Positions 23,394-26,161 of a stretch of DNA of 64,000 bases are shown here, in pieces (the first letter of the stretch is position 1; each line of letters opens with the position of its first letter). Location of the stretch: the NCBI GenBank assembly GCA_035516255.1, contig DATJAL010000052.1, forward strand, positions 1-64,000. The letters are read 5' to 3'. Under the pieces are notes generated by a model. It saw only the letters and a list, made by a program, of their open reading frames with translations, had not been told where the DNA came from and did not search any database. This DNA comes from Chitinivibrionales bacterium. Lineage in GTDB: Bacteria; Fibrobacterota; Chitinivibrionia; Chitinivibrionales; FEN-1185. A program made the translations under genes and the position numbers.

Positions 23394-24104
23394 ATGAAAC
23401 CCGTTTCAATAGGCAGCGTCGCCCTCGGCGAAATCCCGCGCGTGGTCGCCATCGTCGACGAGTTTTTCGACATGCGGCGCATCGGCGAGCTTAAAAAAAC
23501 AGGCGTTGATATTCTTGAAATACGGGTTGACAAGCTCGGCGCCGACATCCCGGCGCTGTGCGTTTTCATTGACAAGATAAAAAAGACTTTCGCGTTCCCG
23601 TGCATCGGCACGGTGCGCGAGACCGCCGAAAACAAGGACAAACGGATTGACATCTTCACGGCGATCACGCCCTTTGTCGACGCCGTCGACATCGAGGGCG
23701 ACACGCCGATAAACCGGCAGGTGATCGCCCTTGCGGCGGGGAAAACGGTCATCGTGTCGGAGCACGATTTTGAGAAAACGCCCGACGCGGCGCACCTCGA
23801 GGCGCTCGCGGCAAGGGCTGAGTCGCTCGGCGCGGACATCGTCAAAATCGCGGCCATGGCCAAAAGCCGGCACGACGTGGCGCGCCTCATGGCGTTCACG
23901 GCGGCCGCAAACAGGAACATGGTCGCCATCGCCATGGGGGAATTCGGCGCCATCTCCCGCGTTCTGGCGCCGGTGTTCGGCTCGCTCTTTACTTACGGGT
24001 ATGTGACCAGGTCCGTTGCGCCGGGCCAGCTGCCGGTGGCACGGCTCGTGGATGAACTGCGTCTTTTCTACCCGGCATTCAAGGCGAAAGGCGGAACGCC
24101 ATGA
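23394..24104 (+). CDS. aroD: Type I 3-dehydroquinate dehydratase
   Basis: Third step of the shikimate pathway: 3-dehydroquinate to 3-dehydroshikimate by a Schiff-base mechanism. The 236-residue sequence has the substrate-binding LEIRVDKLGAD, the catalytic His124 in VSEHDFEKTP and the Schiff-base Lys151 in ADIVKIAAMAKS. Their spacing of 27 residues is the same as in the E. coli enzyme (143 and 170). GYVTRSVAPGQLPV near the end is the usual substrate loop. The stop overlaps the start of the E2-like gene by 4 bases, so the two are translated together even though no functional link is obvious. Confidence 0.93.
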   Translation: MKPVSIGSVALGEIPRVVAIVDEFFDMRRIGELKKTGVDILEIRVDKLGADIPALCVFIDKIKKTFAFPCIGTVRETAENKDKRIDIFTAITPFVDAVDIEGDTPINRQVIALAAGKTVIVSEHDFEKTPDAAHLEALAARAESLGADIVKIAAMAKSRHDVARLMAFTAAANRNMVAIAMGEFGAISRVLAPVFGSLFTYGYVTRSVAPGQLPVARLVDELRLFYPAFKAKGGTP

Positions 24105-25264
24105 TGGCGCAGGGGCTTGCGGCCGGGAAAAACGGGGTAACGGCGAGCGTGAATACATCGCCGCCAAGGAATCCGAAGAGCGCCGAGCTGCGGCTACAGC
24201 GCCTTCTCGCCGAGCACGAACTGCTGAAAAAATTCATCGCCACGCATTTGTATATCCACATCAAGGAGGAGTTCGGGTTTCCGCCCGAAAAATACCACCT
24301 TGTCTTCCGGGTGGACGGCCTGCTTCAGGCGGGGAAGTCGATCGAGCCGAAAAGCGAGCACATCGTTGAAATACTCCTGCCCGACGATTATCCGGAAACG
24401 CCGCCCGTGTGCTCGATGCTGTCGCCGATATTTCACCCCAACATCTCTGACGAGAGAATTGACATAAAAGAAGAATGGAACCCCGAGACCACGGTCGCCG
24501 ACCTCGTGGTCAAGATCGGGCAGATGATCGTTTTCCAGCGGTATTCGGCGAAGGCCCCGCTCAACAAGGATGCCGCGCAATGGGCGGTGAACAACGGCAG
24601 GCTGCTGCCCCTGTCCGCCGTCGATTTCACCCGCACGGCCGAGGCGGCGCCGGCTCCCCCCGCGAAGGCGTCCGCGCCCGCCAGGCCGCAACAAGTTGCG
24701 GTTGTAAAGGAGCAGGGGGATGCGGAAACGATCGTGCTTGAAGGCGCATTGGCACCGCTGGCAAAAGACGCCGCGCCCCGCGAGGACGATACGGCGCAGC
24801 TTGCTCTGGAGGCGATAGCGTCCACGGTGGCGGCGGAAGCTGCGGCGGGGACGCGGCAGGTTTCCGCACCAAAACCCGTCCAGGCCCCGGCGGTTTCGCG
24901 GCCGGGCGTGACCGCCGAAAAAAAACCGGCCGCGCCGCGAGCGGCGCCGATTGCGCAGACCGCGGCGCCTGCGATGCCGGTGAAGCGGCCGCAGGAAAGA
25001 CAACTTTTTAGAGGACCGGTAACCGAGCCTGAGCGTAAATTACTTGTTGAACGAATTGCGGCCGTTTTTAAAATCGAATGCATCTTCTGCGTGCGCTGCG
25101 GAAAAAGGCACGACGCAGAAACGGTTTTCTGTTCCCGCTGCGGCGCAAGGCTTTACAAGAGGGATCCGAAACGGATCACGAAAATGGCGCTCGCCGTCTG
25201 CGCGGTTGTCGCGCTGTTTCTTGCCGCAGAGGCCGGGATTCTCACGGTTCTGATAAACCTGTGA
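24101..25264 (+). CDS. Ubiquitin-conjugating-enzyme-like (UBC/E2 fold) protein with zinc ribbon and C-terminal membrane anchor
   Basis: Residues 28-165 follow the E2 pattern: helix 1 (RLQRLLAEHELLKKF), the strand YHLVFRVDG, ILLPDDYPETPPVCSMLSPI, the HPN motif at 112-114, a Trp at 126 and the closing APLNKDAAQWAVNN. Where E2 enzymes carry the catalytic Cys, this protein has Asp121 (RIDIKEEW) and the loop is shorter, so thioester chemistry is unlikely. A 140-residue Ala/Pro-rich linker follows, then a zinc ribbon (CVRC 330-333, CSRC 344-347) and one transmembrane helix (362-385) right at the end. The layout is that of a tail-anchored cytoplasmic protein. It is coupled to aroD and followed by an FHA-PATAN gene. 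Confidence 0.75.
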   Translation: MMAQGLAAGKNGVTASVNTSPPRNPKSAELRLQRLLAEHELLKKFIATHLYIHIKEEFGFPPEKYHLVFRVDGLLQAGKSIEPKSEHIVEILLPDDYPETPPVCSMLSPIFHPNISDERIDIKEEWNPETTVADLVVKIGQMIVFQRYSAKAPLNKDAAQWAVNNGRLLPLSAVDFTRTAEAAPAPPAKASAPARPQQVAVVKEQGDAETIVLEGALAPLAKDAAPREDDTAQLALEAIASTVAAEAAAGTRQVSAPKPVQAPAVSRPGVTAEKKPAAPRAAPIAQTAAPAMPVKRPQERQLFRGPVTEPERKLLVERIAAVFKIECIFCVRCGKRHDAETVFCSRCGARLYKRDPKRITKMALAVCAVVALFLAAEAGILTVLINL

Positions 25265-25357: not shown

Positions 25358-26161
25358 ATGCCGAATTTATTTCTTGTCCGTTATCCCGACGCGCCCATCC
25401 CGGTTTCACCCACGGGAAAGGTGACCATCGGCCGGTCGAATCTCAACTCGACCGTTCTCATGGAAATGCGCGTGAGCCGCTTTCACGCGCAGATCGAATG
25501 GCAGGAGTTCCTCAATTATTTCATCCTCACCGACCTCGGCAGCGCGAACGGCACCTACCTCAACGGAAAGAAAATCAGGCCGCGCGAGCTGCACCCGCTC
25601 AAGGATTGGGACAAGATCCGCATCGCCTCCACGGTGTTCACCTCCCGTTTCGTGGATGACCCGCAGGCCATCACGGGCGAATTTGATGACCTCACCGAAA
25701 AGGCATCGCATGACAAAACGGAAGTGATCGAGCTTTCGAAAATCAAGGCCCTCGACCAGCAGCCGGCGTTCTCGGGCGACCTGGAGCACCTGTGCGCCAT
25801 CGAGATTTTCCAGATCCTCGAGGCGGGCGCCAAGACCGGCCTGCTCACCATAAAAACAAACATCGGCGACGGCAGCTATACGATCCTGAAGGGAAAGGTG
25901 CTCACCGCGCAGTTCAAGGATTTTCTCGGCGAGAAGGCCGTGTTCGAAATCCTGAAATGCACGAGGGGCACCTTCGAGTTCCTGCCCGAGATCGTCGATA
26001 TCAAAAATCCGCAGATCGAGCTCGCCACCTCCATGCTCCTTATGGAGGGCTGCCGGCTGCTCGACGAGGCCAACCTGCAGGCCTCGCGTTCGGCCGCCGC
26101 ACGCCAGCCGTCGGCACCGCTGACGGGCAACCCGACGCAGACAAGTTTTCCCACAATATAA
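25358..26161 (+). CDS. FHA domain plus PATAN (DUF4388) domain protein
   Basis: 267 residues from the ATG at 25358, which has a GGTGG site and opens directly into the FHA domain. VTIGRSNLNSTVLMEMRVSR with FHAQIEW, DLGSANGTYLNGKKI are the phosphothreonine-binding loops (GR, SRxH, NG). From about residue 135 a PATAN domain follows (FSGDLEHLCAIEIFQILEAG, TGLLTIKT, GKVLTAQF, GTFEFLP), a helix-strand module common in response-regulator-linked adaptor proteins. An adaptor that reads Ser/Thr phosphorylation is likely. No kinase is next to it; the gene upstream encodes the E2-like protein. An alternative GTG start at 25280 adds 26 unexplained residues. Confidence 0.85.
   Translation: MPNLFLVRYPDAPIPVSPTGKVTIGRSNLNSTVLMEMRVSRFHAQIEWQEFLNYFILTDLGSANGTYLNGKKIRPRELHPLKDWDKIRIASTVFTSRFVDDPQAITGEFDDLTEKASHDKTEVIELSKIKALDQQPAFSGDLEHLCAIEIFQILEAGAKTGLLTIKTNIGDGSYTILKGKVLTAQFKDFLGEKAVFEILKCTRGTFEFLPEIVDIKNPQIELATSMLLMEGCRLLDEANLQASRSAAARQPSAPLTGNPTQTSFPTI

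Follow-up and report, generated by a model that had tools for sequence, protein, structure and literature searches.

At positions 24101 to 25264 of the forward strand of the window, i.e. the whole stretch of 64,000 nucleotides analysed here, an open reading frame encodes a 387-aa protein. The frame is a real gene: its ATG and the stop of the upstream aroD overlap in ATGA, and related genomes have the UBC region too, with 45–49% identity between the window protein and its relatives. The protein belongs to a family, hereafter f1, of four proteins in three genomes, namely the window genome (G000), G001 and G002. The features of the locus are as follows.

23394 to 24104, + strand: aroD (type I 3-dehydroquinate dehydratase), upstream and overlapping; TIGR01093, 144.8 bits.
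24101 to 25264, + strand: Cys-less E2-like, zinc-ribbon, predicted tail-anchored protein, 387 aa; open reading frame and Pfam.
24173 to 24616, + strand: UBC (E2-fold) domain, residues 25–172; UQ_con 42.1 bits, AlphaFold pLDDT 94.4, the listed PDB fold matches being E2s.
24434 to 24442, + strand: HPN motif, residues 112–114; invariant in alignments with relatives.
24461 to 24463, + strand: codon of Asp121 at the catalytic Cys position; alignment of relatives and profile alignment to UBE2C.
24626 to 25078, + strand: Pro/Ala-rich linker, residues 176–326, predicted disordered; pLDDT mostly <50.
25088 to 25153, + strand: zinc ribbon CxxC-x10-CxxC, residues 330–351; PF13240 above cut-off, the four Cys invariant in all four f1 proteins.
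25184 to 25258, + strand: predicted C-terminal membrane helix, residues 362–386, preceded by the basic stretch YKRDPKRITK; hydropathy 2.45, helix in the model.
25358 to 26161, + strand: FHA-DUF4388 (PATAN) gene, downstream; Pfam FHA 63 bits, DUF4388 60 bits.

Pfam comparison matched UQ_con to residues 89–165 (E 8.5e-11, 42.1 bits against a cut-off of 27), a match found in none of 14 control genomes, while the RWD model stayed at 12.6 bits, under its cut-off of 22.8, and the Prok-E2 models gave no Pfam match in the protein. AlphaFold modelling of residues 24–181 with 45 sequences yielded a mean pLDDT of 94.4 and a pTM of 0.89, and a PDB fold search with this model returned 399 matches at E ≤ 0.001, the best 50 of which were all E2 enzymes or E2-containing complexes (TM ∼0.6–0.67). 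The family profile matched 259 PDB sequences, with UBE2C as the best and UBE2C/UBE2N types among the best ones, and its Cys column aligned on the UBE2C Cys. The UBC fold put forward by the original prediction is thus confirmed both by structure prediction, with high confidence, and by the HMM comparison with E2 and RWD families, and the window protein is a member of this fold. Its zinc ribbon, also proposed originally, was recognised by Zn_Ribbon_1 (residues 329–351, 26.3 bits, cut-off 25). The proposed tail-type anchor holds as a prediction: the C-terminal hydrophobic segment reaches 2.45 on the Kyte-Doolittle scale in a 19-residue window, and residues 356–386 are helical in the full-length model. 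That model is of low confidence overall, being usable only for parts of the UBC domain and, less so, for the zinc ribbon and the membrane helix. By the positive-inside rule, the basic flank of a membrane helix lies on the cytosolic side, so the basic stretch before the helix suggests that the UBC domain and the zinc ribbon are located in the cytosol. The window protein matched no PADLOC model.

Position 121, which aligns with the E2 Cys, is occupied by Asp (Asp121), just as the original prediction had read it. In window numbering, C121, D124, R138 and S152 are invariant in 40 of 40 Cys-bearing relatives, and all four residues are missing from the four f1 proteins, each of which carries Asp121; no consistent residue replaces D124, R138 and S152, and the HPN motif and fold residues are kept despite the active-site loss. 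Judged by these residues, the window protein lacks the catalytic Cys of E2 enzymes, and it is, like UEV and RWD domains, an E2 fold without that Cys. The shortened active-site loop reported earlier is indeed seen, but it is common to the whole bacterial family including the Cys-bearing members and not peculiar to the window protein.

The window genome encodes two E2-like proteins, both on one 345-kb contig. The paralogue (L002), with 643 aa, comprises a UBC domain, a longer Pro/Ala linker, a zinc ribbon, a membrane helix and a TPR-like C-terminus. At this locus (L002:76-2004, − strand), ∼150 residues with the TPR-like repeat follow the membrane helix and are predicted outside the cytosol, unlike the window copy, which ends directly after its helix. 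Single relatives occur in G001, a 98% complete genome of the same genus, and in G002, a 79% complete one of the same family, and a scan of 168 genomes of the phylum gave matches only in the three f1 genomes and in G029, a member of another family of the same order that has Cys at the site where f1 members have Asp. In the trees, f1 formed one clade with a support of 99/97, or 99/98 when the active-site columns were removed, and its branches were long. Pairwise identities within f1 were 45–64% in the UBC domain and 18–24% in the linker, except for 45% in the linker of the syntenic pair; the frames are intact in the three genomes, and the zinc ribbon and membrane helix are kept in all four proteins. 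The syntenic pair consists of the paralogue L002 and its orthologue L006, each of which is encoded close to a metallo-beta-lactamase gene and to a block common to the two loci. For their UBC domain, dN was 0.25 and dS 1.22, i.e. a dN/dS near 0.2 that covers the paralogue and its orthologue only, not the window copy, and that indicates purifying selection on the domain in this pair. In G001 (L108:7073-10506), the E2-like gene lies directly after same-strand genes reading as earP and efp (elongation factor P), which is not so in the window genome.

By scanning 84,980 species genomes with a five-sequence alignment, we obtained 190 relatives, of which the best 80 were kept; a single-sequence query of genome contigs gave no matches, so that relatives were recovered by the alignment query only, and none were found in viral contigs. 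The best 80 of the 190 came mostly from Planctomycetota, the other phyla being Verrucomicrobiota, Lentisphaerota, Kiritimatiellota, Acidobacteriota, Myxococcota, Riflebacteria, Bacteroidota and others. Together with the presence of a relative in 38 of 392 Planctomycetota genomes, these 190 relatives from one scan speak against the earlier view that E2-fold proteins are rare in bacteria, at least as very rare ones. Bacterial E2 operons in Planctomycetes have already been mentioned in a review (PMC4197634), and planctomycete E2s are attributed to Arcas 2013 as cited in PMC5493775.

Among the 76 relatives with a parsed site (from the best 80 of 190), 73 have Cys, two Asp (both f1) and one Leu. 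The f1 UBC domain shares 36–43% identity with the Cys-bearing bacterial E2s, whose genes recurrently lie in the same-strand order UBL - E1 - JAB - FHA - zinc/RING proteins - E2 (Pfam names YukD for the UBL, ThiF for the E1, JAB, FHA, Prok-RING_1 and UQ_con). A conserved PEITAG is found close to the end of the operon UBL. In PADLOC, the operon E1 and JAB matched nothing but generic E1-E2/JAB defence models, and G029 retains part of such an operon at a contig end (L080). Identity and tree together point to kinship with the E2s of the UBL-E1-JAB-FHA-RING-E2 operons, and at the sequence level the f1 UBC domain descends from this Cys-bearing family. Many operon E2s already have the linker and the C-terminal zinc ribbon, so these parts are not new in f1; what is new is the strong membrane helix, equalled in strength in 0 of 73 parsed Cys-bearing members. 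Five Cys-bearing operon E2s (L057, L028, L036, L020 and L027) end in long CxxC arrays that resemble multi-RING stretches, and are perhaps E2-E3 fusions.

Profiles of the operon UBL, JAB and RING found nothing convincing in the three f1 genomes, of which G002 is only 79% complete, and such profiles could miss a very divergent UBL. In the window genome, the best UBL match scored 12.6 bits and the best RING match 17 bits, and JAB had no match, as compared with 241 bits for JAB and 234 bits for RING in the Cys-bearing G029 of the same order. The UBL was not seen in G029 because the UBL end of its operon lies beyond the contig, and G168 (158 bits) and G169 (164 bits) were used as the UBL-positive comparison genomes. 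The E1 matches in the window genome span the ThiF core only and, from the sequence by eye, read as TcdA-like and as a short ThiF-type protein; no UBL gene was seen next to either of its E2-like copies. The search for UBL, E1 and JAB genes suggested with the original prediction therefore returned only generic ThiF-type proteins, and the window genome appears to have neither an operon-type UBL nor a cognate E1. At the sequence level, f1 has lost both the catalytic constellation and the partner genes.

Cys-less forms were also met in Planctomycetota. Among the loci read, the Cys site holds Tyr in G194 (L135) and His in G364 (L149) and G307 (L150), and in G169 a copy with Leu (L076/L130) occurs alongside one with Cys. 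The Cys-less forms of these four genomes have a short linker, a zinc ribbon and a similar QA(E/K)TTPS stretch. The UBL profile had no match in G194, G364 and G307, genomes for which completeness is not given. Since the Planctomycetota forms are not clearly grouped with f1, Cys loss accompanied by UBL absence seems to have happened more than once, in a few cases. A single origin of all Cys-less forms was tried and set aside: f1 and the Planctomicrobium Leu form grouped weakly (54/45), and placing all eight Cys-less rows in one clade fitted worse, with a marginal p-AU of 0.045.

As for the neighbourhood, aroD is probably no more than a co-transcribed neighbour of the E2-like gene. The downstream gene was rightly recognised in the original prediction as FHA-PATAN, as its Pfam FHA and DUF4388 matches attest, and probably starts at ATG 25358, the ATG common to its paralogues, which would put it 93 bp 3′ of the E2-like gene. 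It is of a different type (FHA-DUF4388) from the FHA gene of the operons, and operon partners of the window protein were not detected. Three close paralogues of it, with 51–68% identity, occur in the window genome, none adjoining an E2-like gene at the loci read, and the E2-like paralogue L002 has no FHA neighbour, leaving the adjacency to the window copy only. Conservation of the aroD-E2-FHA order, another suggested check, did not emerge: the E2-like paralogue and its orthologue have other neighbours, and the contig of the sister genome G001 ends just behind aroD, making the E2-FHA spot unreadable there. As no gene context is conserved across the E2-like copies, we treat the association of the E2-like and FHA genes as hypothetical. 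In the linkers of the paralogue and its orthologue, T-x-hydrophobic-hydrophobic motifs, which resemble FHA ligands, exceeded shuffles (p 0.003 and p 0.025, respectively), and the linker of the window protein showed no such excess (p 0.20); as the pattern was picked post hoc, this enrichment is only a lead. In 6 of 6 FHA-DUF4388 copies read (window 25358–26161, L118, L119, L120, L121 and L122), a T-(E/D)-(V/I)-I stretch that looks like a phosphothreonine ligand site is found between FHA and DUF4388, and TEVI also occurs in the linker of the E2 paralogue.

We consider it fairly probable that the window protein serves as an adaptor without catalysis, tethered to the membrane, and has survived the conjugation system from which it came. 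In f1, a UBC domain that once belonged to a ubiquitin-like conjugation system of bacteria has lost its catalytic site and would have persisted as a pseudo-E2 after the other components disappeared. It would then have acquired an anchor in the cytoplasmic membrane, its UBC domain and zinc ribbon being cytosolic on a long flexible linker. There, the UBC domain would bind a partner protein and hold it near the membrane in a docking or adaptor role, the linker giving reach and the zinc ribbon stabilising the arrangement or adding contact; a plausible partner pathway would be FHA-based phospho-threonine signalling via the neighbouring FHA-PATAN protein. Because the active site is lost and ubiquitin-like partner genes are undetectable, the E2 fold seems to be kept for binding rather than for chemistry. 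In eukaryotes, the E2 fold serves for binding in UEV and RWD domains, and it is from the kept fold and the way these domains work that we infer a binding function, while the orientation and the FHA link are similarly deduced and the membrane signalling role suggested originally is hypothetical. More tentatively, the retention of an inactive E2 after loss of the entire ubiquitin-like conjugation system, and its reuse as an adaptor, may have occurred independently in several bacterial lineages; in f1, the result would be a membrane-anchored zinc-ribbon scaffold linked to FHA phospho-signalling, to which the paralogue adds TPR.

Four other explanations were weighed against the adaptor. It is rather unlikely that the window protein still serves a ubiquitin-like pathway by binding non-covalently, in UEV style, an unrecognised or housekeeping UBL (ThiS/MoaD/YukD-like) for regulation at the membrane: operon-type UBL, JAB and RING were not found in the three f1 genomes, nor a UBL gene beside either copy, even though the fold is kept with high model confidence, the window genome has ThiF-type E1-like proteins, and binding of Ub moieties has been proposed for the inactive E2-like domains of Ub-like operons (Iyer 2006, PMC1779556). 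The missing partner genes and long branches might suggest a remnant of a vanished conjugation operon, now functionless and in decay, but we think this improbable: the frames are intact in three genomes, one of which has two copies, dN/dS is near 0.2 for the paralogue and its orthologue, none of the four proteins has lost the zinc ribbon or the membrane helix, and the UBC domain is modelled with high confidence. A different chemistry supported by Asp121 on the E2 fold, e.g. hydrolase-like or acyl-transfer, deserves equally little credence; the invariance of Asp in 4 of 4 f1 proteins is not random, yet the enzyme-invariant D124, R138 and S152 are also gone without consistent replacement, Leu, Tyr or His stands in place of the Cys in other Cys-less lineages, and we know of no E2-fold enzyme with a catalytic Asp. 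Least credible is a genuine functional counterpart of the tail-anchored Ubc6/UBE2J in membrane protein quality control, which the shared order of UBC, linker and C-terminal anchor would fit, as there is no catalytic Cys, UBL or RING were not detected, and the nearest relatives are bacterial E2s that lack this kind of anchor, UBE2J being absent among the 60 listed of the 259 PDB sequence matches of the family profile.

Pseudo-E2s such as UEV and RWD are central in eukaryotes, where the step from an active E2 to a binding module is hard to reconstruct. The same step appears to have taken place in bacteria, probably in more than one lineage and with enzyme-bearing relatives and operons available for comparison, which makes testable what the E2 fold does without ubiquitin chemistry. 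The case also cautions against reading a UQ_con match in a bacterium as proof of a ubiquitin-like pathway.

Earlier work had already described E2 operons in bacteria, as well as E2s without activity that lie within Ub-like operons, and the orphaned, tail-anchored form is new: no description of such a bacterial pseudo-E2 was found in the literature searched, the coverage of which was incomplete. With the operon E2s, the window protein shares the UBC domain sequence, HPN, the SPLN/APLN ending and, in many of them, the linker and zinc ribbon, whereas these E2s have their own Cys and operon and, among the 73 parsed, no equally strong C-terminal membrane helix. Eukaryotic UEV and RWD domains resemble it in using the E2 fold for binding without catalysis, but are of other origin, the RWD match being below cut-off. 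The inactive E2/RWD-like domains of bacterial polyUbl operons (Iyer 2006, group 6e, PMC1779556) are likewise bacterial E2 folds without Cys; they reside in polyUbl and JAB-E1 operons, whereas the window protein is orphaned and matches UQ_con but no Prok-E2 model. Finally, the likeness to Ubc6/UBE2J drawn originally stands for the order of parts, UBC, linker and a single C-terminal anchor, the last as a prediction only, and finds no support as kinship: Ubc6/UBE2J are active enzymes, the window protein, without Cys, is not an active E2 of that subfamily and shows no specific kinship to them, and, with relatives that are bacterial operon E2s and a membrane helix added within f1, its layout is only analogous to that of the eukaryotic enzymes.
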